Shown here one piece after another: positions 409 through 37,183 of a stretch of 64,000 bases of DNA. The notes under the pieces are model-generated. The model was not told where the DNA came from. It ran no database searches and worked only from the letters and a program-made list of their open reading frames with translations. The stretch is taken from contig JAFQBH010000024.1 of NCBI GenBank assembly GCA_017399765.1, forward strand, positions 1 to 64,000, given 5' to 3'. The stretch's first letter is position 1, and every line of letters begins with the position of its first letter. The position numbers and the translations under genes are program-made. This DNA comes from Oscillospiraceae bacterium (lineage in GTDB: Bacteria; Bacillota; Clostridia; Oscillospirales; Ruminococcaceae).

Positions 409-957
409 TTATTCTTTTTCTCTAAAAATATCTTTATTTTTAATACAATAATTAATTGCCGAAGTTACGGTCAGAACTGTCATGATCCAGTTGCAGAAAT
501 AAGTTACGGTACCAACCAGACTTGCGTCCGGCGAACCCGTTGCGCTTTTAATAAGGATAAGAATAATAGCGATATCCTGAAAAACCGTTTTAAGTTTTCC
601 CCAGATATCCGCGGCAATAACTTTTCCCTTTGATGTTGCAAGCATTCTCACGCCTGTAACAAGGAATTCCCTCGACATAATGATAATGGTAACTGCCGGA
701 TGAAGAAGTCCCGCATAGGTAAAACAAACAAAAGCCGCCATTACCATAAGCTTATCCGCAAGGGGATCCATAAGCTTTCCGAAATCGGTAACAAGATTTT
801 GTTTTCTGGCAATATATCCGTCAAGGGCATCTGTTATTGCGGCAAGCGCGAACAGCGCAAGTGTTATCCAATCACTGATACCGCCAGTCAGAAAAGCTGC
901 AACAAAAAGCGGAATCATCACAACTCTTAAAAGAGTGAGTATGTTGGGAAGATTCAA
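409..957 (-). CDS. pgsA: CDP-diacylglycerol--glycerol-3-phosphate 3-phosphatidyltransferase
   Basis: PgsA makes phosphatidylglycerol phosphate from CDP-diacylglycerol and glycerol-3-phosphate at the cytoplasmic membrane, the committed step to phosphatidylglycerol. The protein has about 183 residues and several hydrophobic helices. It carries the CDP-alcohol phosphotransferase signature D-G-x2-A-R-x8-G-x3-D-x3-D in DALDGYIARK and DFGKLMDPLADK. The start chosen is TTG at 957, giving MNLPNILTLL, the usual PgsA N-terminus. AAAGGAGG lies 7 bases upstream; the longer reading from 975 would begin inside the ribosome site. It is the last gene of the recA-recX-rimO-pgsA operon, 23 bases after rimO. 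The rimO-pgsA-recA order is common in Firmicutes, but the usual cinA gene is missing here. Confidence 0.93.
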   Translation of the reverse strand: MNLPNILTLLRVVMIPLFVAAFLTGGISDWITLALFALAAITDALDGYIARKQNLVTDFGKLMDPLADKLMVMAAFVCFTYAGLLHPAVTIIIMSREFLVTGVRMLATSKGKVIAADIWGKLKTVFQDIAIILILIKSATGSPDASLVGTVTYFCNWIMTVLTVTSAINYCIKNKDIFREKE

Positions 958-980
958 CAAGCGCCCTCCTTTCAAAATTT

Positions 981-2333
981 TTATTCGGCCAATTCTCCGA
1001 GAAGGTCATATTCGGAGGATTTGATGATTTTAACTTTTACAAAATCTCCGATACAATGTTTTTCCGGGCTTGCAAAATAAACGATTCCGTCAATTTCCGG
1101 AGCATCCTGAGAACTTCTTCCACGGAAAACCTTGTTTTTGTTGTCATAGCCCTCTACAACAACTTCCATTACAGAACCGACTTTTTTCTTAAGAAGCGCA
1201 GCGGAAACAGCGGTCTGTATTTCCATTATAACTTCCGCTCTGCGCTGTTTGGTTTCTTCATCAAGCTGGTTCGGCATATCGTAAGATTTTGTGCCTTCCT
1301 CTCTTGAATATGCAAAACAGCCAAGGCGGTCGAACTTTGCCTGCTTTACAAATTTGCAAAGAGCCTCAAAATCACCGTCACTCTCGCCAGGGAAACCTGT
1401 GAGAAGAGTTGTGCGGAGAGTGATTCCCGGAACTTTTTCCCGGAGATGTTTTACCATTGCGATAAGTTCTGCCGGGGTGCTCTGTTTTCTGTGCATTGCT
1501 TTAAGAACTTTTTTACTGCAATGCTGGAGCGGAATGTCGAGATATTTTACAATTTTTTCTTCGGAAGCCATTACGTCAAGAAGCTCTTCGGTAACTCTTT
1601 CCGGATATGCATAAAGAATTCTGATCCATCTAATGCCGTCGATTTTGCAAATCTGGCGGAGAAGTTCCGGAAGCATTCTTTTTCCGTAAATATCTTCGCC
1701 GTATCTGGTGGTATCCTGGGCGATGATGATAAATTCCTCAACGCCTTTTGCGGCAAAAGCTTTGCATTCCTCAACAATGCTTTCCATAGGTCTGCTGCGG
1801 TAACGTCCGCGAATGGCCGGAATTGCGCAATAGGAACAGCGGTTATCACAGCCGTCGGCAATTCTGATATATGCATAATAGGGATAGTTAACAAGAATCC
1901 TCTTGCCTTCCATCTCAAGATTTTCCGGAGCATAGAATTTGCGGACCTTCTGTCCTTCAAGAGCCTGGCGGATGGAAGCGGCAATTTCATCGTTTGCGCC
2001 GATTCCGAGGATTACGTCCGCTTCGGGAATAAGTTCTGCCATTTCCTCGCGGTAACGTTCTGCAAGACAGCCGGTTACAACAACGAGTTTTACGTAACCC
2101 TGTTCTTTAAGCTGGCAGCACTGGAGAATATTTTCAATGGATTCGCGTTTCGCGCTTTCAATAAAACCGCAGGTATTGACGATAACAACGTCGCATTCGG
2201 CGGCGTTTTCGACAATTTCAAAACCCTCTTTTTCAAGTGCGCCGAGCATAAGCTCCGCATCCACCTGGTTTTTGTTACAGCCGAGGGCAATCATTCCGAT
2301 TTTTACGGTTTCATTCGTTTCCATACAGTTCAT
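981..2333 (-). CDS. rimO: Ribosomal protein S12 methylthiotransferase RimO
   Basis: RimO is a radical SAM enzyme that methylthiolates the conserved aspartate of ribosomal protein S12. About 450 residues is the usual length. The N-terminal MTTase domain holds three cluster cysteines, in ALGCNKNQVD (about residue 19), NTCGFI (55) and VTGCLAER (89). The radical SAM motif GCDNRCSYCAIP (about 162-173) binds the second 4Fe-4S cluster, and a C-terminal TRAM domain follows. The start chosen is ATG at 2333, 9 bases after AAGGAAG; another ATG lies at 2324. The 5' end overlaps recX by 23 bases, which implies translational coupling. The overlap and the LexA-box promoter place it under the same SOS-responsive transcript as recA. 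Confidence 0.93.
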   Translation of the reverse strand: MNCMETNETVKIGMIALGCNKNQVDAELMLGALEKEGFEIVENAAECDVVIVNTCGFIESAKRESIENILQCCQLKEQGYVKLVVVTGCLAERYREEMAELIPEADVILGIGANDEIAASIRQALEGQKVRKFYAPENLEMEGKRILVNYPYYAYIRIADGCDNRCSYCAIPAIRGRYRSRPMESIVEECKAFAAKGVEEFIIIAQDTTRYGEDIYGKRMLPELLRQICKIDGIRWIRILYAYPERVTEELLDVMASEEKIVKYLDIPLQHCSKKVLKAMHRKQSTPAELIAMVKHLREKVPGITLRTTLLTGFPGESDGDFEALCKFVKQAKFDRLGCFAYSREEGTKSYDMPNQLDEETKQRRAEVIMEIQTAVSAALLKKKVGSVMEVVVEGYDNKNKVFRGRSSQDAPEIDGIVYFASPEKHCIGDFVKVKIIKSSEYDLLGELAE

Positions 2334-2820
2334 CTGCAATTTCTTCCTTTACTTTATATATCGCATCTTTTATCATATCATATCCGTAGCCAAGACGGAA
2401 GAGCGAATTTATAACTTTTTTGGAATTTTTTTCGTCGGTAAGCTGATTTTTGTATCGGATTTCAATAATCCTCTCAAGTCTTTCCTCCGGAGAGCCGATT
2501 TCCTCCTCGGCGGCAAAAATCGCCTGTTCGGCAATTTCCTCTTCAATTCCTTTTCTTTTAAGTTCCATTTTAAGTCTCGAAGGTCCCAAAAGCTTCATTT
2601 CCATAAGGTCGTGGGCATATTGGAAAGCATAGGCTTCGTCATCAATAAGTCCGCCGTCTTCGAGCATATCAAGGACTTCGTTCACAGTATCGATGTTTGC
2701 AAAAACTTTGAGTTTATCAAAAAGCTCCAAACGCGAATGAGCCCTGTACTCTAACAAGTTCAGGGCTTTTTCTTTGGTCTGTTCGGTTGTAAGCTTTGTT
2801 TTCGGTTTATTCTTCGTCAT
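2311..2820 (-). CDS. recX: Regulatory protein RecX
   Basis: RecX binds the RecA filament and modulates its ATPase and coprotease activity. The product of about 169 residues is almost entirely alpha-helical and charged, with the repeated three-helix layout of the family: [19 protein letters not shown], then [15 protein letters not shown], then [15 protein letters not shown]. The start overlaps the recA stop. ATG at 2820 gives [10 protein letters not shown], and ATG at 2826 is equally possible; neither has a strong ribosome site, so translation is probably coupled to recA. Its 3' end overlaps rimO. The neighbour recA makes the identification firm although RecX sequences diverge quickly. Confidence 0.9.
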
Positions 2821-3883
2821 CCACATCTGCTTCAATATCAATGCCGGTGGGGGCAACGCTCAGAATTTTGGATTTTTTCGCAGGCTTTGAAAGATCGGAA
2901 AGTTTATCCATGTTCGCGCGGACTTTTGCTTCGATATCTTCACAAAGAGCGGTGTTTGCGCGAAGAAGTTCCTTAACGTTGTCGCGTCCCTGTCCAAGTC
3001 TTTCGCCGTTATAGGAGAACCATGCGCCGGATTTATCGACGATATCAAGTTTTACCGCAATATCGAGCAGTTCGCTTTCCTTGCTGATTCCCTGTCCGTA
3101 CATAATATCAAATTCCGCTTCACGGAAAGGCGGAGCAACTTTGTTCTTAACAACTTTAACTTTGGTGTGGTTTCCGATAACGTCGCCGCCCTGTTTTATC
3201 TGTTCCTGTTTGCGAACGTCAAGACGAACGGAAGAATAGAATTTAAGTGCGCGGCCGCCGGGAGTAACTTCCGGGTTTCCGTACATAACGCCGACCTTTT
3301 CACGAAGCTGGTTGATGAAAACAGCAACACAGTTGGTTTTGCTGATAACGCCGGTAAGTTTGCGGAGTGCCTGGGACATAAGTCTTGCCTGAAGTCCAAC
3401 GTGGGTATCGCCCATAAGACCTTCGATTTCCGCCTTCGGAACCATTGCCGCAACGGAGTCAACAACGATTACGTCGATTGCGCCGGAACGAACAAGCGCT
3501 TCGGTAATTTCAAGAGCCTGTTCGCCGGTATCCGGCTGGGAAACAAGAAGGGAATCGATATCAACGCCAAGAGCTTTTGCATAAACCGGGTCGAGAGCGT
3601 GCTCAACGTCGATAAATGCGGCTTCGCCGCCTGCTTTCTGCGCGGATGCTATGATATGGAGGGCTACGGTTGTTTTACCGGAACTTTCCGGTCCGTAAAT
3701 CTCAACAATTCTTCCTCTCGGAACACCGCCGATTCCAAGGGCGCTGTCAAGAGAGATGGAACCGGTGGAAATTGCTTCCACGTTAAGAGCCGGCGCCTGG
3801 CCGAGTTTCATAACGGTTCCTTTTCCGTATTGTTTTTCAAGCTGTTTGATTGCGGTTTCAAGTGCTTCTTTTCTGTCTGCCAT
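2807..3883 (-). CDS. recA: Recombinase RecA
   Basis: RecA coats single-stranded DNA, drives homologous strand exchange and triggers LexA self-cleavage. At 358 residues it is close to the family norm. The Walker A motif GPESSGKT is at about residues 64-71, the catalytic glutamate region is in [10 protein letters not shown], and the L2 loop and the [12 protein letters not shown] stretch are intact. The C-terminus is acidic (DVDDEE). The ATG at 3883 has GGAGG upstream. It is the first gene of recA-recX-rimO-pgsA. The promoter at 3939-3967 and the LexA box at 3987-4000 indicate SOS induction. Unlike many Firmicutes there is no cinA next to it. Confidence 0.98.
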
Positions 3884-22490: not shown

Positions 22491-22557
22491 ACCTGTGGAA
22501 TTTTTTTCTTTTGTTTTGCATAGGCTTGTACAAAAAAGAAAGGAAAGTGTAAACCAG

Positions 22558-23562
22558 ATGTCAAAATTCCGCACAGCAGTAATCGCAGTAACCCTTGCGG
22601 CAATATTTTTTATACCGATTTCCGCAATTCCCGAAACACCCAATGCAAACGCAGAAAAGGAACCTTCCGTTTCCGAAAACTTTGTTTCCGTTCCGGAAGA
22701 AGAATTTTCCGAAGAACCTGTTTTTCCGGAAGGCACCTTTCGGATTTTTGATCTTGAAACAGAAACTGTTTCCGAAGTTTCTTTTTCAGATTATGTGAAA
22801 GGCGCAATTGCTTCCGAAATGGGCGCGGATTTTGAATTTGAAGCACTTGTTGCCCAAGGGGTCGCGGCTTTCAGCTGCGGACTTTATCAGCAAAGGATAC
22901 ATTTTGCCGCGGATTATGATTTTTCTGCCGCTCCGGATAAAAAACTCGGATATATGACCGAAGAAAAAGCAAAGGAAATTTACGGAGATAAATTCAGTGA
23001 AAAATGGTCGGTAATTTCCTCAGCCGCGGAAAAAGCGATGAATTATGTCCTCACCTATGAAGGCGAACCCGCTCTTTCGGTTTATCACGCAATTTCAAAC
23101 GGCACTACTGAAAGCAGTGAAAACGCCTGGGGCGGCGCCGTTCCATATCTTGTTTCCGTAAAAAGTCCCGGCGACGTTTTATCGCCGGATTATGAAACCA
23201 CCCTTTCGGTAAGCAAAAAGGACGCTCTTGAAATTCTTAACAAAAACGGAGCGGGGCTTAACGGTTCCTATCCGGAAGAATGGTTCGAAGGAGCAGAGCG
23301 CACCGAAGCCGGTTACGTTGATAAAATCATAATCGGCGCCGCAACCTTTTCCGGAGAAAAACTCCGGAGCATTTTTAACCTTCGGTCAACAGATTTTGAC
23401 ATCAGTTATAAAGATGATGAATTCATTTTCACCGTCCGAGGCTATGGCCACGGAGTAGGTCTTTCCCAGGTCGGCGCAAATCATATGGCAAAAGAAGGGG
23501 CGGATTTTCGGGAAATTCTCTCGCACTATTATCCGGGAACGGAATTAAAGGAATATTCTTAA
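22558..23562 (+). CDS. SpoIID/LytB domain protein (secreted lytic transglycosylase-like)
   Basis: This 334-residue protein has an N-terminal hydrophobic segment (about residues 6-24) that anchors or exports it. An acidic spacer follows, then a SpoIID domain from about residue 72. The catalytic-type glutamate is in GAIASEMGAD (E87), close to E88 of Bacillus SpoIID. The C-terminal signature RGYGHGVGLSQVGANHMA is intact. SpoIID cleaves glycan strands denuded of peptide stems during engulfment in sporulation; a vegetative role is possible for paralogues. ATG at 22558 follows AAAGGAAAG. Its stop overlaps the stop of the convergent MFS gene by 4 bases, with no terminator between them. Confidence 0.88.
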   Translation: MSKFRTAVIAVTLAAIFFIPISAIPETPNANAEKEPSVSENFVSVPEEEFSEEPVFPEGTFRIFDLETETVSEVSFSDYVKGAIASEMGADFEFEALVAQGVAAFSCGLYQQRIHFAADYDFSAAPDKKLGYMTEEKAKEIYGDKFSEKWSVISSAAEKAMNYVLTYEGEPALSVYHAISNGTTESSENAWGGAVPYLVSVKSPGDVLSPDYETTLSVSKKDALEILNKNGAGLNGSYPEEWFEGAERTEAGYVDKIIIGAATFSGEKLRSIFNLRSTDFDISYKDDEFIFTVRGYGHGVGLSQVGANHMAKEGADFREILSHYYPGTELKEYS

Positions 23563-30810: not shown

Positions 30811-30842
30811 TTGCACCTGCCCTTTTGGGCAGGTGCTTTTGT
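30811..30842 (+). terminator. Terminator after gpmI
   Basis: The stem GCACCTGCCC / GGGCAGGTGC with a 4-base loop is followed by TTTTGTTT. Confidence 0.92.
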
Positions 30843-30886: not shown

Positions 30887-33800
30887 TTAAGGTTCTTTAT
30901 AACCTATGTAGCAGTTGGAATAATATTTGAGAAGAATTTCGTCCCATTCATAGCCTTTTTTTGCATAAGCAATGGAACCGATGGCGCTCATTCCAACGCC
31001 GTGGCCATAACCGCGCATTGTAAAGACAAACTGGTCCTTTGCAGAATCATATTCCACGTCAAATGCGGTGGAGCGAAGGCTTGAACCGCCGAGAACGGTT
31101 TCGCGAAGCTTTCTTGCGCTGTATTTTGTTCCGCAAATTTTCACCTGGTTTACGTAATCCGTGTCGTCCCAATAACTGTAAATTTCTATCCAGTCTTCAG
31201 GATCTCCCGAAACGGTTATGTTGGTTTTGCTTTCAATTTTGTCTTTAAAGCTGGAAGAAGAAATTTTATAGGTTTTGGAGCTTTTTCCGTCAACAGGAGA
31301 GGAAACGGAAAGAAGGTTTCTGTTCGGATAACCCCAAACCCATTCCGCATCGGCGGTTTCTCCGCAGCTTTCGGAAAAATATGTTGCAAGAATAAAATCG
31401 TCGCTTCTGTCATCAAGAACCGCATAGCCTATTACTTCCGCAACGCATTTTTCAATCTGGCTGTCAAGCTTTTTGGTGCTTGTGCCGGCGCTGATTTTTC
31501 CGCCGTTATTCATAAGATAAGTATAAGATGCAACGGCCTGGGCTTTAACGTGTTCGTCCGGCTGACCCTGACCTGCTTCATAAGCAACGATCTGGCAAAC
31601 AGCGTCATAAACGCTCATGCTTGTTCCGTTGACTTTGACCTTATCTTTTTTGGACTGTTCGTAATATTTGCTTGTTTTTCCTTTTGTACTGCTCAGGTTT
31701 TCAACCGTAGCTGCACTTTCGCTTTCGGAAGCACTTTCGTTTTCAGAAGGACTTTCCGGAGGAATAGAACTTTCGGGAACGCTGGAAGGCGGTACACTTT
31801 CCGGAACGCTGGAAGGCGGAACACTTTCCGGAGCACTGGAAGGATCGGAACTTTCCGGAGCGGAAGATGTCTGGGCAGGATTTACGGTTACTTTAAATAC
31901 CGCAGAATAATTCTGGTACGTTACTTTTATGTTCTGCGTTCCGACTGTATTGAGAACCGTAACATTCGTAGTAAATCCGATTGAAATATCTTCGGTGGTG
32001 TTGTCGGATTTTTTCACTCTTATAACAAGACCAGAAGTATCAAGGCTTTCGCCAACGGTATAAACCGTTTTGTCCGGGCCGCTTACAATTTCAATTCCGG
32101 TTACGGTGGCTTCAACCGCTTTTACTTCAACAGTTGTTTTTGCTGTAAGTTCATTATAGCTTACGGTAAAAGTTGCGTTTCCTGCTTTGCTTGTATCACC
32201 GGAAACAGTAAACCCACTGGTAATATCCTCTGTGGTACCGTCGTTCTTATAAACTCTTACAACAAAATCAGAAGCTTTCGGCACATCGCCCACGTTGTAA
32301 AAATCAGGCGCACCGATAATTTCAATTGAGTTCGCAATTGCTTCGGCGTTTTCGTCTTCTACAACAATTATATAGCTGAAAGTGAATCCGGCATATTCAA
32401 TAATGATCTCATATTCTCCGGCTTCATCAAAAGGACCTTCCGGATAAACGGTAAATCCTTCGGAAATTTCTTCGTATTCTCCTTCGGTTTTATAAACCGC
32501 AAGAATGGTCCCGGATGTATCAATGCTTTCTCCGACTTTATAAACGCGTTTGTCGGGGTAACTGATTATATCGACTTCTTCAACGCCCTCAACTCCGCCG
32601 ATTTCTTCAGCTTCACCGAAAGATGCGTCAGATTCGGACTGCTGCGCTTCGGAAATTGCCTGGTACCATTTGTCCGGCATAAGCGGATTGGAGTTGTAGT
32701 AAGCTTTGCTTGTATCAAGAGCGCTGATGTCTTCGCCCTCTCTTACCTGTCTTGCAATAATTACTACACGCGCATCGGTAAAGTCATAACTGCAGGTGGA
32801 AAGGGTAAGGAAATGGTCGCTTGTGTTATATTCGACACCGGTTACTATCATTGTGCGCTTTGCAACCTGGTTAAGGAATTCTTTTGTTTCCGTTTCGTCG
32901 CCGTTTATAAAGTTGTTATAATCCCATACCGGGCCGTCTTTTTCATAAGCATTGGTAAGAATTACGCCGACAACAAGCCAGTCAAAATCGCCGTAAAGGG
33001 TGTCAAAATGAACAACCGGGTGTTCTTTATAAAAACTGAGCTTTCTGTATTTAAGAAGGTCGCTGAACATCTGTCCGTCATTGTAAACGTTGTGACCGTA
33101 AACAATAATATTCGTGCTCTGTTCTTCCGGTTTCGTTTCACAGCGGTAATCAATAAACGGTGTTCCGTACATGGAATAATTTCCGTAAAAATCCTTGCGG
33201 AGATAATACTGTCCGCGCTGTCCTTTTTCATTGGCAACGGGTGTCTGTACAACCGGGAAATCAACATTTGTGTCATCAAGTTTGATGTAACCCGCTGTAT
33301 CCGGATTTTCTTTGAAAAGACCGTAAAGTTTGGCGTTGTAACCCCATTCTCTTACTTCTTCTTCATCATATACCTGGTTCTGAACAAGGTTCTGAAGATT
33401 TGCCGCAAGGTCGCGGTGTTTAACACTGTCAAAAAGCTTTGTGCTGAGATATCCCATTGAACCGAGGAAAACAAGCACGCAAAGAATGAAAATAGATTTT
33501 CTGATAAGTTCGTTTTTGCTGTCGCCTTTCATCGGAACAAATCTTGCGTACCATTTCTGTTCGCCTTTTGATTCGGAAGTTTTGAATTTTGATTTTCCGG
33601 AAACCGCATTTATCAGAGAAACGGAATTTTCATAAAGTTTCGGATATGCGGAAACAACGTTTCTTGCAAGGTGAACAGCTCTTGCGCCGGCAACAGCGAT
33701 AAGTTCTTCCCTGTTTTCTGCGGTAACGTGTTCAGTCCAGACATTGTCGCCCATGCAAACCGCAATGTTTGCCCCATCGTTATTTTTAAGCGGATCGGTG

Positions 33801-34744
33801 GTAACAGCAATACCGATATTTGAACCGTAAGTTTTGCAGACCTCTCCCGCAAGAACCGCCGCAGTCCATGTGCTGTTTGCGCCGTGGCGTTTAAGAAGCT
33901 TTTCCGGAATATCATATTTTGAAACCCCTTGAGAAGTTCCAAGATAGTTACCGACATATTCTTCAGCAAAAACCGCTCCGGTTATTTCATTTCTCTGAAT
34001 TCCTTCCGCTGCAACCGCAACGTTAAGATCCTTTTTGGAAAGTTCCTGGGCAAATGCCTGGCCGACGTTTTCCGCACCGACCGCATAAACCGCAGAACCC
34101 ATGGCGGAAATCACGTTTTTAAGCGCGGAATTTACTGCCGCGGAAACTTCTTTCTTGTCGGTTCCTTTCCCATAAAACTGAACCACAATTTCTTTTCCGT
34201 CTTCAAAAACTCTTACCGCTGTGCCGGCAGTTTCCGCCGCGGAAACTGCGTCCTCTGCCTCCGCTTTTAAAATTCCTTCGGCGCGCAAAGTTTTAATGGA
34301 ATAAATTCCGCCCACAAAGTCGGCAAGATATTGTGAAACGCGGTAGCAAAGCATGAACTGAAGCGTTTCTTTGTCTCCGGGAAGCATGATTATACATTGA
34401 TTTCCCTGGGAAATCGCACATCCGCTGGGTTTTCCGGTTTTATTGCGGAAAATTTCCGCCCCTTCCGGAAAAACTTCTTCATCTTTAAGAACCGTGGGGA
34501 ATCCGATTGCGGAAGAAACCGCAGAAACGGTCATGTTTCCGTTTTCTTCACCGATTCCTCCTATAATCATAATTACATTATAATCTGAAAGGGATTCCGC
34601 AACGGTCTTGTGAATTGCGGCGCGTTCTGCGTCAATGCGCTTTCCTTTGATATTGGTGATCCCGAGCATTTCAAATTCTTTCTGAACAAGCTGGGCAACG
34701 TTATCCTGTTTTACGTTGCTTAAAAGAATTACCTGTGACTGCAA
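30887..34744 (-). CDS. Multidomain protein: CinA-like, membrane helix, class B sortase, three Ig-like, SpoIID
   Basis: A single 1285-residue frame. Residues 1-165 resemble the CinA N-terminal domain but are degenerate (GGIGEENGN where GGLGPTxDD is usual). Residues 200-365 resemble the CinA amidase domain. One membrane helix (about 414-433) follows. A class B sortase domain spans about 480-670, with H551 in VYGHN, C651 in LSTCSYDF and R659 in DARVVIIAR. Three Big_3-like Ig domains (about 724-955) carry the motif KVGESIDTSG. A proline/serine/glutamate linker spans 957-1015. A SpoIID domain ends the protein (E1056 in AYEAG, then RGYGHGVGMSAIG). The predicted topology is CinA inside, the rest outside. 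The TTG start at 34744 follows AAAGGAG. It is the third gene after cysteine desulfurase and thiI. A role in anchoring and remodelling the wall is inferred. Confidence 0.85.
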   Translation of the reverse strand: MQSQVILLSNVKQDNVAQLVQKEFEMLGITNIKGKRIDAERAAIHKTVAESLSDYNVIMIIGGIGEENGNMTVSAVSSAIGFPTVLKDEEVFPEGAEIFRNKTGKPSGCAISQGNQCIIMLPGDKETLQFMLCYRVSQYLADFVGGIYSIKTLRAEGILKAEAEDAVSAAETAGTAVRVFEDGKEIVVQFYGKGTDKKEVSAAVNSALKNVISAMGSAVYAVGAENVGQAFAQELSKKDLNVAVAAEGIQRNEITGAVFAEEYVGNYLGTSQGVSKYDIPEKLLKRHGANSTWTAAVLAGEVCKTYGSNIGIAVTTDPLKNNDGANIAVCMGDNVWTEHVTAENREELIAVAGARAVHLARNVVSAYPKLYENSVSLINAVSGKSKFKTSESKGEQKWYARFVPMKGDSKNELIRKSIFILCVLVFLGSMGYLSTKLFDSVKHRDLAANLQNLVQNQVYDEEEVREWGYNAKLYGLFKENPDTAGYIKLDDTNVDFPVVQTPVANEKGQRGQYYLRKDFYGNYSMYGTPFIDYRCETKPEEQSTNIIVYGHNVYNDGQMFSDLLKYRKLSFYKEHPVVHFDTLYGDFDWLVVGVILTNAYEKDGPVWDYNNFINGDETETKEFLNQVAKRTMIVTGVEYNTSDHFLTLSTCSYDFTDARVVIIARQVREGEDISALDTSKAYYNSNPLMPDKWYQAISEAQQSESDASFGEAEEIGGVEGVEEVDIISYPDKRVYKVGESIDTSGTILAVYKTEGEYEEISEGFTVYPEGPFDEAGEYEIIIEYAGFTFSYIIVVEDENAEAIANSIEIIGAPDFYNVGDVPKASDFVVRVYKNDGTTEDITSGFTVSGDTSKAGNATFTVSYNELTAKTTVEVKAVEATVTGIEIVSGPDKTVYTVGESLDTSGLVIRVKKSDNTTEDISIGFTTNVTVLNTVGTQNIKVTYQNYSAVFKVTVNPAQTSSAPESSDPSSAPESVPPSSVPESVPPSSVPESSIPPESPSENESASESESAATVENLSSTKGKTSKYYEQSKKDKVKVNGTSMSVYDAVCQIVAYEAGQGQPDEHVKAQAVASYTYLMNNGGKISAGTSTKKLDSQIEKCVAEVIGYAVLDDRSDDFILATYFSESCGETADAEWVWGYPNRNLLSVSSPVDGKSSKTYKISSSSFKDKIESKTNITVSGDPEDWIEIYSYWDDTDYVNQVKICGTKYSARKLRETVLGGSSLRSTAFDVEYDSAKDQFVFTMRGYGHGVGMSAIGSIAYAKKGYEWDEILLKYYSNCYIGYKEP

Positions 34745-34787
34745 GAAACCACTCCTTTCAAAAGTTTTTTGTTAATCATATAAAATC

Positions 34788-35966
34788 TCATTTCTTCGGA
34801 AAAAGTCTTAAGCGCTGGTGTTTAATCTCGCATCTTGCAACAAGCTCCTCAATATCAAGAGCCTTTTCCGCTTCCTCGATCATTTCAAGGGTGGGGCGGG
34901 TTTTCGGATGTTTGGGTGTAAACACGGTGCAGCAATCCTCGTAAGGAAGGATAGATGTTTCAAAAGTTCCGATCTTTTCGGAAATTTCAACGATCTCCTG
35001 TTTATCCATACCGATAAGCGGGCGGAAAACCGGAAGAGTTGAAACCGCATCAGTGCAGCCGATTGCAGGCATGGTCTGGCTTGCAACCTGGGCAAGGCTT
35101 TCGCCGGTGATAATTGCGCCGCATTCTTCTTTTTCAGCAAGACGGAGCGCAACCCTCATCATAAAACGGCGCATGATAACGGTAAAAAGTTCTTCGGGAC
35201 ATTTATTTTTGATTTCTTCCTGGATTTCGGTGAATCCGGCGGAGAAAAGATCAACTATTCCGCAATAGTCACAAAGTTTCTGCGCAAGGGACTGAACTTT
35301 GAGCCATGCTCTTTCGCCGGTATATGGCGGCGACTGGAAATGGAGAGCGCAGATTTCAACTCCGCGCTTCGCAAGCATATAACCCGCAACCGGGCTGTCG
35401 ATTCCGCCGGAGAGAAGAAGAAGTCCTCTTCCGCTGGTTCCGATGGGCATTCCGCCCGCTCCGGGAAGCTGTTTTCCGTGGATGTAAGCATATTTTTCAC
35501 GAATCTCGACCATTACGACGATATCCGGGTTTGTTACGTTAACGCGAAGATGGTGGAATTTGGAAAGAAGCACCGCGCCCATTTCCCTTGCAATTTCCGG
35601 GGACTGCATCGGAAAACTTTTGTCGCTGCGTTTTGCTTCAACTTTGAATGTTTTAAGATAAGGAAGGGTATCCGCAAGATAGACCTTCGCTTTTTCAACA
35701 ATATCTTCCCAGTTTTTTTCAGCAACGCAGGCTCTTGTAAGCGCAACTATTCCGAAAACTTTCTGAAGTCTTTCAACCGCTTCATCAAGGTCGATATCCT
35801 CGTCCTGGGGCTCGATATAAATTGTGGACTGGGCTTTCCAGCATTTGAATTTCCCAAGGTCTTCAAGACGGCGCTTGCAGTTTTTAACAAGTCTGTCCTC
35901 AAAACCGGAGCGGTTAAGCCCTTTAAGGGCAATTTCACCGCATTTTATAAGTATGATTTCTTTCAT
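34788..35966 (-). CDS. thiI: tRNA 4-thiouridine synthase ThiI
   Basis: ThiI has 392 residues, adenylates U8 of tRNA and transfers sulfur to form 4-thiouridine; in many bacteria it also serves thiamine thiazole synthesis. The N-terminal ferredoxin-like and THUMP domains are followed by the PP-loop LLLLSGGIDSPVAG (about residues 182-195). A catalytic cysteine pair is in YEDCCTVFTP. The C-terminal rhodanese domain found in E. coli is absent, as is usual in Firmicutes, so sulfur probably comes from the adjacent cysteine desulfurase (12 bases upstream). ATG at 35966 follows GAGGTTC. It is the middle gene of three. Confidence 0.95.
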   Translation of the reverse strand: MKEIILIKCGEIALKGLNRSGFEDRLVKNCKRRLEDLGKFKCWKAQSTIYIEPQDEDIDLDEAVERLQKVFGIVALTRACVAEKNWEDIVEKAKVYLADTLPYLKTFKVEAKRSDKSFPMQSPEIAREMGAVLLSKFHHLRVNVTNPDIVVMVEIREKYAYIHGKQLPGAGGMPIGTSGRGLLLLSGGIDSPVAGYMLAKRGVEICALHFQSPPYTGERAWLKVQSLAQKLCDYCGIVDLFSAGFTEIQEEIKNKCPEELFTVIMRRFMMRVALRLAEKEECGAIITGESLAQVASQTMPAIGCTDAVSTLPVFRPLIGMDKQEIVEISEKIGTFETSILPYEDCCTVFTPKHPKTRPTLEMIEEAEKALDIEELVARCEIKHQRLRLFPKK

Positions 35967-35978
35967 TTATGAACCTCT

Positions 35979-37112
35979 TTATCTGCAAAGTGTGCTCATC
36001 GCGCCCTTAAGGGCATCAACAAGTTCATCAATGTCTTCTTTTTCGGTGTCGCGTCCGAAGCTGATTCGAATTGCGCTGTCTATCCTTGCATTATCATAAC
36101 CCATCGCCGCAAGAACGTGGCTTTTTGCGCCAAGGGCGCATGCGGAACCGCTTGAAACGTAGATTCCTCTGTTTTCAAGGAAATGGAGCATGATTTCGCT
36201 CCGGATGCCCGGAACGGAAATGTTCACGATGTTCGGAATCGCCCCTTCCTTTGAATTAAGGAAGATACCTTCGATTCCGGCAATAGATTCCTTGAAATAC
36301 TTTTCAAGTCTTTCCATTCTTTCCTTTCGCGGAACAGCGGAAACTGTTTCCATAAAAACTGCTTTTCCGAAAGCAGCAATAAGGGGCATTGCCTGGGTTC
36401 CCGGGCGAAGCTGTTTTTCCTGTTCACCGCCGAAATGCTGGGGCAAAACTCTTGTGCCTTTTTTTATCCAAAGAGCGCCTATCCCTTTCGGACCGCCGAT
36501 TTTATGGGCGGTCACCGTTACAAGGTCAACGCCGGATTTTTCCGCTTTGAACGGAACCTTGCAAAAACCCTGGACTGCGTCGGTATGGAAAACGACTTCG
36601 GGATTTTTGCGTTTTGCTGCGGCGCAGATTTCCTTTATCGGGTTTATGGCGCCGATTTCATTGTTGACGAGCATTACCGAAACGAGAACGGTTTTTTCAT
36701 CCACCGCTTCGAAAACCGAAGCAGGGGTTATTATTCCTTTTTCGTCCGGCATTACCCAAGTCACGGTAAAACCCATGGTTTCAAGCTGTTTTGCGCTTTT
36801 TATAACCGAATCGTGCTCATAGGCGGAAACAACGATTTTGTTGCCCTTTCTTTTCTTTGCAAGGGCTCCGCCGATAACCGCAAGGTTGTTTGCTTCGGTT
36901 CCGCCGGAAGTGAAATAAAGTCCTTCCGGATTTGCGCCGAGAGCATCGGCAATATCCCGTCTTGCTTCTTCAAGAACTTTTTCGGCTTCAACGCCTTTCA
37001 TATGAAGCGAAGAAGGATTCCCGTAAATTTCCGTCATAACTTTGAAGGCGGCTTCTGCGGCCTGGGAATAAACCCTTGTTGTCGCGCTGTTATCAAGATA
37101 TATCTCTTTCAC
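35979..37112 (-). CDS. Cysteine desulfurase (NifS/IscS family)
   Basis: This PLP enzyme of 377 residues takes sulfur from cysteine as a persulfide. It has LDNSATTRVY, the PLP lysine in TAHKIGGPKG (about K204), and the persulfide cysteine in SSGSACALGAKSH (about C325) on a short loop. The group resembles the dedicated NifS-like partners of ThiI rather than general IscS; the neighbouring thiI gene supports that. The GTG start at 37112 (VKEIYLDNSA) follows GGAGGCGG; the reading from 37133 would cross that site. It is the first gene of the operon with ThiI and the CinA-sortase-SpoIID protein. Confidence 0.93.
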   Translation of the reverse strand: MKEIYLDNSATTRVYSQAAEAAFKVMTEIYGNPSSLHMKGVEAEKVLEEARRDIADALGANPEGLYFTSGGTEANNLAVIGGALAKKRKGNKIVVSAYEHDSVIKSAKQLETMGFTVTWVMPDEKGIITPASVFEAVDEKTVLVSVMLVNNEIGAINPIKEICAAAKRKNPEVVFHTDAVQGFCKVPFKAEKSGVDLVTVTAHKIGGPKGIGALWIKKGTRVLPQHFGGEQEKQLRPGTQAMPLIAAFGKAVFMETVSAVPRKERMERLEKYFKESIAGIEGIFLNSKEGAIPNIVNISVPGIRSEIMLHFLENRGIYVSSGSACALGAKSHVLAAMGYDNARIDSAIRISFGRDTEKEDIDELVDALKGAMSTLCR

Positions 37113-37154
37113 AAATCCGCCTCCGATGAACATAATTCTCCATTATTCAGAGTT

Positions 37155-37183
37155 ATTATACACTAAAATATATTAGTTTTCAA
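37155..37183 (-). promoter_or_regulatory. Promoter of cysteine desulfurase-thiI operon
   Basis: On the minus strand TTGAAA (37178-37183), 17 bp and TATAAT (37155-37160) precede the gene by about 40 bases. Confidence 0.75.

Follow-up and report, generated by a model that had tools for sequence, protein, structure and literature searches.

A CinA-like part, a class B sortase domain and a SpoIID-type domain in one membrane protein of Oscillospiraceae, encoded at a locus found in many stages of fusion

The DNA analyzed here (the window) comprises 64,000 nucleotides, positions 1 to 64,000 of contig JAFQBH010000024.1 in assembly GCA_017399765.1 of an Oscillospiraceae bacterium, and carries on its minus strand a gene of 1285 codons (30887..34744) with a TTG start at 34744, for which orthologues were found. 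Its single frame joins a CinA-like part, a membrane helix, a class B sortase, Ig-like domains and a SpoIID-type domain in one membrane protein of this gut bacterium; the CinA part lies in the cytoplasm, and the two modules that appear to be cell-wall enzymes lie beyond the membrane. The gene belongs to an old locus, iscS-thiI-cinA-srtB-spoIID, which occurs in many fusion stages. We propose, with about an even chance of being right, that the protein is a vegetative wall machine, which anchors proteins and cuts glycan and uses its pseudo-CinA as a SteA-like cytoplasmic platform. SteA consists of a dimeric cytoplasmic thiamine pyrophosphokinase-like domain plus one helix and controls the wall hydrolase RipA (PMC12977500).

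All modules are encoded on the minus strand. The CinA-like region begins with a degenerate COG1058/MoCF part (residues 1-144; 34313..34744), in which GGIGEENGN stands in place of GGLGPTxDD. It continues with a KH-like part (residues 145-222; 34079..34312), in which the conserved Glu of GIGES is changed to Lys, and a degenerate nicotinamide mononucleotide (NMN)-deamidase part (residues 223-369; 33638..34078), which lacks SCT of ESCTGG and the catalytic Lys. A single membrane helix (residues 417-435; 33440..33496), detected by hydropathy and conserved in the genus, precedes the class B sortase domain (residues 471-672; 32729..33334) with H551 (33092-33094), C651 (32792-32794), and R659 (32768-32770). 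Three Big_3 Ig-like domains serving as spacer (residues 721-955; 31880..32584) and a linker rich in Pro, Ser, and Glu (P/S/E; residues 956-1029; 31658..31879; read from the sequence) lead to the SpoIID-type domain (residues 1030-1285; 30890..31657) with E1056 at 31577-31579. An earlier interpretation of the letters alone (the sequence-only reading) had proposed this architecture, with the CinA-like region inside the cell and an intact sortase triad. All the modules that it named were recovered in the one frame, the helix lies between CinA part and sortase as it had supposed, and the catalytic residues of both wall enzymes, H551/C651/R659 and E1056, were confirmed.

In the first structure model, the blocks as far as residue 220 had predicted local distance difference test (pLDDT) values of 57-85. 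For residues 441-1285, the mean pLDDT was 52.3 and the predicted template modelling score 0.25, with good Ig domains (pLDDT 72-90 per block), a partial SpoIID, and a poor sortase (mostly <40). Because of the low quality of this outer-part model, we claim no domain arrangement. The spacer between sortase and SpoIID varies from 177 to 420 residues across the genus, and in G012 it is a Ser-rich stretch with no Ig domain visible by eye; its role is therefore probably reach.

The window genome is incomplete (44 contigs, 88% complete), and an assembly or sequencing error could in principle have fused separate genes. The probability of such an artefact is practically nil. A genome scan returned 13 loci, all in bins titled Oscillospiraceae, and the full three-module frame was present in 12 genomes of the genus, the window included. 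The 11 further full-length orthologues, from bins titled after water deer, goat, sheep, roe deer, and water buffalo (one without a host), together with fusions in other genera, rule the artefact out. Two genus members (G008 and G009) are cut by contig ends. In the divergent member G011, adjacent genes encode a CinA-sortase protein of 883 residues and a SpoIID protein of 429 residues with its own hydrophobic helix, so that the last fusion step is visible within the genus.

We compared 56 loci, mostly from the same order and picked by their match to the protein or to a CinA-sortase profile. The gene order iscS-thiI-cinA (or a short pncC)-srtB-spoIID recurred among them: thiI lay at most 2.5 kb from a CinA-type gene in 47 of the 56, and SrtB was in frame with SpoIID or at most 2.5 kb from it in 35. 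One-frame genes for CinA, SrtB, and SpoIID were found at 21 loci, 12 in the window's genus and 9 elsewhere; two of these nine have an N-terminus weakly recognized as CinA (G036a and G632, with CinA probabilities of 27% and 88%). The other loci comprised 13 CinA-SrtB fusions, 2 CinA-SpoIID fusions without a recognized sortase (G020 and G025), 14 with separate genes (for example, all three in G027 and G554 and two in G044), 2 that were cut, and 4 without an adjacent cinA on the same strand. Also among the 14 are G029, G550, G620, and G797, in which pncC occurs with two or three sortases, and SrtB-SpoIID pairs were found apart from iscS-thiI-cinA (G016 and G024). Genome G036 has two members on contig C43 (L057, L058), a CinA-sortase at the thiI locus and a sortase-SpoIID with a shorter N-terminus elsewhere.

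The sequence-only reading would have been refuted had the homologues always been separate genes; in fact, some genera have them separate and others fused, and fusions extend to further genera of the window's order. When 396 genomes were drawn evenly from the order, 26 matched at E 1e-95 or better, and a stop-free CinA-sortase frame was present in 11, from 8 genera and 5 families. Among 393 genomes drawn from the class, at least 4 gave a spanning match (neighbors in different frames cannot appear as one match); among the matches listed, all were from the window's order. A class B sortase has an N-terminal helix anchor, with the N-terminus inside and the body outside, and the separate sortase of G027 carries a hydrophobic helix at 34-52. 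The gene order therefore equals the membrane order (inside, membrane, outside), so that read-through fusions would keep sidedness. We infer that the fusions preserve the topology of a cytoplasmic front and an outer rear enzyme. The chain would have arisen through loss of stop codons in an old, putative operon.

Alignment with hhalign matched residues 7-369 to positions 14-415 of CinA (99.7%), with COG1058, KH, and deamidase in order and about 23 residues missing from the COG1058 part as alignment gaps. Homology to Thermus thermophilus CinA (4uux) spans all three parts, by hhalign and by VIA-align of the model, and the score against PRK00549 (NCBIfam CinA) was 75.1 bits, below the 379-bit cut-off. 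Gephyrin E domains appeared lower in the VIA-align list for the model, and MoeA has a MoCF fold. The functional residues described for T. thermophilus CinA (PMC4246079) were mapped by alignment, with residue numbers counted by hand. The Mg-binding Asp76 corresponds to N70, the ribose-binding Glu156 to T127, and the KH Glu187 to K160, and no Lys stands at the place aligned with the catalytic Lys301, and the SCTGG loop is shortened. By these alignments, the CinA part would be a pseudoenzyme in the window's genus. Its likeness to CinA/PncC (NMN deamidase and ADP-ribose pyrophosphatase) is homology across three parts, and the cinA gene behind thiI is intact in separate-gene relatives; the fused protein differs in its lost catalytic residues, its deficit of ~23 residues, and the attached membrane helix.

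The loss of these residues follows a pattern. Standalone cinA/pncC genes in these loci kept the deamidase residues in 16 of 16 cases; among the fused copies, 11 proteins retained them and 24 were degenerate. Among the first 61 genomes, which this comparison covered (fused genomes found later lie outside it), the fused CinA was intact in all seven genera in which it is the genome's sole CinA/PncC match (G015, G019, G028, G031, G039, G050, and G058) and degenerate in all six in which another copy exists (the window's genus, G018, G020, G025, G034, and G036), an association with a Fisher p of 0.0006 over 13 genera. In the window's genus, all 15 genomes had the other copy, which in G009 is split into two pieces. 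Judged from the sequences, the pattern is consistent with an enzyme that was retired after another copy had taken on its chemistry.

The retired part is nevertheless conserved. Mean pairwise identity among 12 proteins of the genus was 79.9% for COG1058, 81.6% for the deamidase, 82.6% for the sortase, and 79.9% for SpoIID, 79.1% for the CinA-to-membrane linker and 81.1% for the helix, and 29.5% for Big_3 and 24.1% for the P/S/E linker. The ratio of nonsynonymous to synonymous substitution rates (dN/dS) in the pair of the window and G013 was 0.06 (COG1058), 0.04 (deamidase), 0.02 (sortase), and 0.09 (SpoIID), and it did not exceed 0.18 for these modules in the four pairs computed. In the window's genus, the conservation of two of the three pseudo-CinA parts matches that of the wall enzymes, and these parts are under purifying selection. 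Under our proposal, the pseudo-CinA would be kept as a cytoplasmic platform for dimerization, docking, or regulation. The main rival holds that it is a passive relic, which keeps the start signals and the fold, and that sortase and SpoIID alone work. Its basis is that cinA lies directly upstream of srtB in separate-gene relatives (G027, G044, and G554), that the missing CinA parts differ by genus (deamidase in G018; COG1058 in G034_941, G050, and G058), that the pairs of G016 and G024 do without CinA, and that the KH-like part drifts more (56.9% identity). Conservation of the other two parts, the membrane linker, and the helix, beside a spacer that drifts freely, speaks against a relic, as do the stop-free CinA-sortase frames in 8 genera. 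We regard the relic as a serious though less probable explanation.

A cytoplasmic module that couples an internal signal to the wall had been suggested by the sequence-only reading, and the CinA part might accordingly sense a nucleotide or NAD metabolite and switch the wall enzymes through the helix. SteA offers a precedent, its Corynebacterium glutamicum homologue being stabilized by GDP or UDP (PMC12977500), and CinA is described as a dimer with domain movements (PMC4246079). In addition, 13 of 14 genus rows keep T315 and R345, the counterparts of the ligand-site residues T340 and R377 in the alignment with T. thermophilus CinA. G011, however, has lost both, and the genus lacks the Mg-binding Asp, the ribose-binding Glu, and the catalytic Lys of the pyrophosphatase and deamidase. 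Nor is any CinA sub-domain universal among the fused relatives, an observation at odds with a single conserved ligand pocket. The coupling claim gained little support, and we consider a metabolite sensor quite improbable. A single CinA pocket common to all fusions was likewise unsupported by the residue alignments.

The sortase domain scored 148.8 bits against TIGR03064 (class B sortase) over 2-235 of 235 positions, with the separate srtB of the same locus type in G027 at 176.6 bits. With class B sortases such as SrtB of Staphylococcus aureus, Bacillus anthracis, and Clostridioides difficile, it has the H, C, R triad and the N-terminal helix in common; it differs in having CinA in front, SpoIID behind, and no neighboring substrate gene. 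In the sortase-domain tree, the window grouped with G002, G011, G012, G015, G018, G027, G036 (two), and G058 (support 92/81, not starred). The SpoIID domain scored 23.5 against Pfam SpoIID (cut-off 23) and has the catalytic Glu and the GYGHGVGMS block of SpoIID/LytB lytic transglycosylases. E1056 aligns with E101 of C. difficile SpoIID, mutation of which abolished activity; the same source describes a zinc site as exclusive to C. difficile SpoIID and that enzyme alone as inactive on peptidoglycan, prior amidase action being required (PMC6221140). The statement of the sequence-only reading that SpoIID cleaves glycan strands is therefore qualified by the need of the C. difficile enzyme for an amidase.

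Across the loci, the catalytic Glu was intact in all 38 SpoIID domains scoring >60 bits. The sortase triad was intact in 66 of 72 domains, cut in 1, and altered in 5, all fused: G028, G031, and G771, where CinA is intact, and G034 and G614, where CinA is degenerate too. Taking one triple fusion per genus, both deamidase and sortase residues were retained in 0 of 10, as against 6 of 11 CinA-SrtB fusions (one-sided p 0.0085); this test was post hoc on related rows, with two doubles from one genus (G560a, G757a), three doubles without the COG1058 part (G019, G050, and G058), and the weak CinA N-termini of G036a and G632 scored dead without alignment. We take the lack of a triple fusion with both chemistries, as read from the residues, as a lead. 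Such counts would be expected if SpoIID were the essential activity and CinA and sortase exchangeable mounts, in cytoplasm and membrane, whose own chemistry could be lost. In the window's genus, however, the triad is kept in all 14 uncut rows and, in the pair with G013, no other module has a dN/dS as low as that of the sortase. Given also the nature of the test, we find this explanation rather unlikely.

Some loci are unusual in their own right. In G028 (L056:5985-8999) and G031 (L061:5057-8212), the fusion has intact CinA residues and a sortase without His and Cys, and the CinA-sortase fusion of G614 (L170:4672 onwards, 891 residues) has lost catalytic residues in both modules. The locus of G771 (L165:2857 onwards) has an altered fused sortase and, between iscS and thiI, a sortase gene with an intact triad. 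In G015 (L053:9241-10761) and G019 (L069:6031-7248), the SpoIID domain is apparently circularly permuted, the GYGHGVGMSQ...YY block preceding the half with the catalytic Glu.

The fused SpoIID is distinct from the sporulation protein. Canonical SpoIID (22495-23562; 258.4 bits, above the cut-off), spoIVA, and SpoIIP all occur in the window genome, and the fused domain reached 100.3 bits against TIGR02870 (sporulation SpoIID), below the cut-off of 234.75. In a tree of 35 SpoIID rows, which omitted nine near-identical genus rows and whose length and score filter excluded short, permuted, and low-scoring domains (e.g., G015, G019, and G771), the SpoIIDs of the locus, fused or not, formed one clade of 24 rows (support 99/99). 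Opposite this clade, the ten canonical SpoIIDs grouped together (88/84, not starred), and the locus SpoIID of G050 formed a long branch beside them. The fusion is also present in G031, where spoIVA and SpoIIP were not found. By score and tree position, identity with the sporulation SpoIID was rejected; the canonical copy, the separate clade, and G031 together indicate that the locus SpoIID is a second paralogue, which is probably vegetative.

The genome was searched for sorting motifs of class B sortases, for which NPxTG is a typical motif (PMC11987632). It contains 10 sites coding for NPxTGA and none for the reversed control pattern; seven of the ten have a full sorting tail (motif, hydrophobic stretch, and basic tail) and three do not. 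The pattern was counted in 34 of 60 relatives, and tails were checked in the window genome alone: nine other genus members had 7-18 sites each (reversed control 0; G011 2), and 25 genomes outside the genus had 0-8 (control 0-4). Pfam found no family above its cut-off in the examined parts (517-532 residues) of the seven proteins with full signals. These lie on contigs C13, C18, C24, C29, and C44 of the window genome (G000); the two genes on C24 are convergent and have identical tails. From their motif, the NPxTGA proteins are probable substrates of the fused sortase. Pilus-type sortases sit beside LPxTG proteins, and no substrate gene adjoins the fused sortase. Three further class B-like sortases, one on C33 over the cut-off and weak or remote ones on C10 and C19, fall outside the window sortase's group in the tree. 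The motif search thus yielded a candidate set, for which these three may also be partners. The C33 sortase lies near a PPDTG protein; a search with TIGR03063 (srtB_target) gave three matches, none above the cut-off, of which only the PPDTG protein has its match in a sorting-type tail. Contigs C41 and C43 (L072, L073) each carry a pilus-like gene set that includes LPxTG proteins, the two sets being closely alike, and the one C41 sortase tested was class C.

In the proposed mechanism, the class B sortase would anchor surface proteins, probably with NPxTGA tails, outside the membrane, and the SpoIID-type lytic transglycosylase, on its Ig or Ser-rich spacer, would cut glycan near the anchoring site. 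The pseudo-CinA might hold or steer this pair from inside, by analogy with SteA and RipA. Several points weigh against the proposal. The loci were chosen by similarity, so that the counts are not frequencies, and incomplete bins (G015, 84%) may hide a second CinA copy. Sortase and SpoIID_LytB scores are slightly below the NCBIfam cut-offs (153.75 for TIGR03064; 77.9 bits against 83.3 for TIGR02669), and no amidase partner of the kind needed by C. difficile SpoIID was seen among the neighboring genes. One of the other class B-like sortases may be the true partner of the NPxTGA proteins. Finally, the KH-like part is less conserved (dN/dS 0.14-0.37), and purifying selection on the pseudo-CinA could reflect folding alone. 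A bolder version, in which an order-wide machine gates anchoring and glycan cutting across the membrane through CinA, the fold of an NAD-metabolism enzyme, as an independent SteA-like switch, with repeated stop-codon loss and CinA turned sensor or clamp where another copy took over, seems to us improbable.

SteAB-RipA of Mycobacteriales resembles the fused protein in that an enzyme-like domain in the cytoplasm, together with a helix, is linked to a wall hydrolase (PMC12977500); the fold is apparently unrelated, the core of the fused protein being CinA-like, and the hydrolase is recruited, whereas it is fused here, and we name SteA as an analogue only. The divisome scaffold Glp/GlpR is likewise a re-used enzyme relative, in its case of MoeA (PMC10522489); it is not fused, unlike the CinA protein, and it binds FtsZ. 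A literature search covering titles and the beginnings of abstracts, with most subscription journals outside its coverage, returned no description of a sortase-SpoIID, CinA-sortase, or CinA-SpoIID fusion. The individual modules are known; the literature searched contained no account of the fused chain, the locus, or the decay pattern. Sortases are commonly regarded as enzymes distinct from lytic transglycosylases, and their union at this locus in many genera, with repeated fusion, suggests that anchoring and glycan cutting happen in the same spot on the wall. Along a natural series that runs from separate genes to a single chain, modules are variously dead, which allows each part to be compared, and a selected CinA pseudoenzyme beside a helix would represent a second system, apparently unrelated to SteAB, for steering wall enzymes from the cytoplasm.

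The fused gene is preceded, also on the minus strand, by an RBS (ribosome-binding site)-like AAAGGAG (34752..34758, read from the sequence), 7 bases upstream of the TTG codon. By synteny, thiI (34788..35966) is a probable operon partner and an iscS-type cysteine desulfurase gene (35979..37133) the first gene of the probable operon. Consensus scans placed a promoter-like TTGAAA-17-TATAAT before iscS (37155..37183), as weak evidence given 15 sites versus 11.4 expected, and a terminator-like hairpin 3' of the fused gene (30813..30836; 27 matches versus 11.4 expected). In many Firmicutes, cinA often adjoins recA; at 409-3883 of the window, pgsA-, rimO-, recX-, and recA-like genes, named from reading their sequences, stand together with no cinA.

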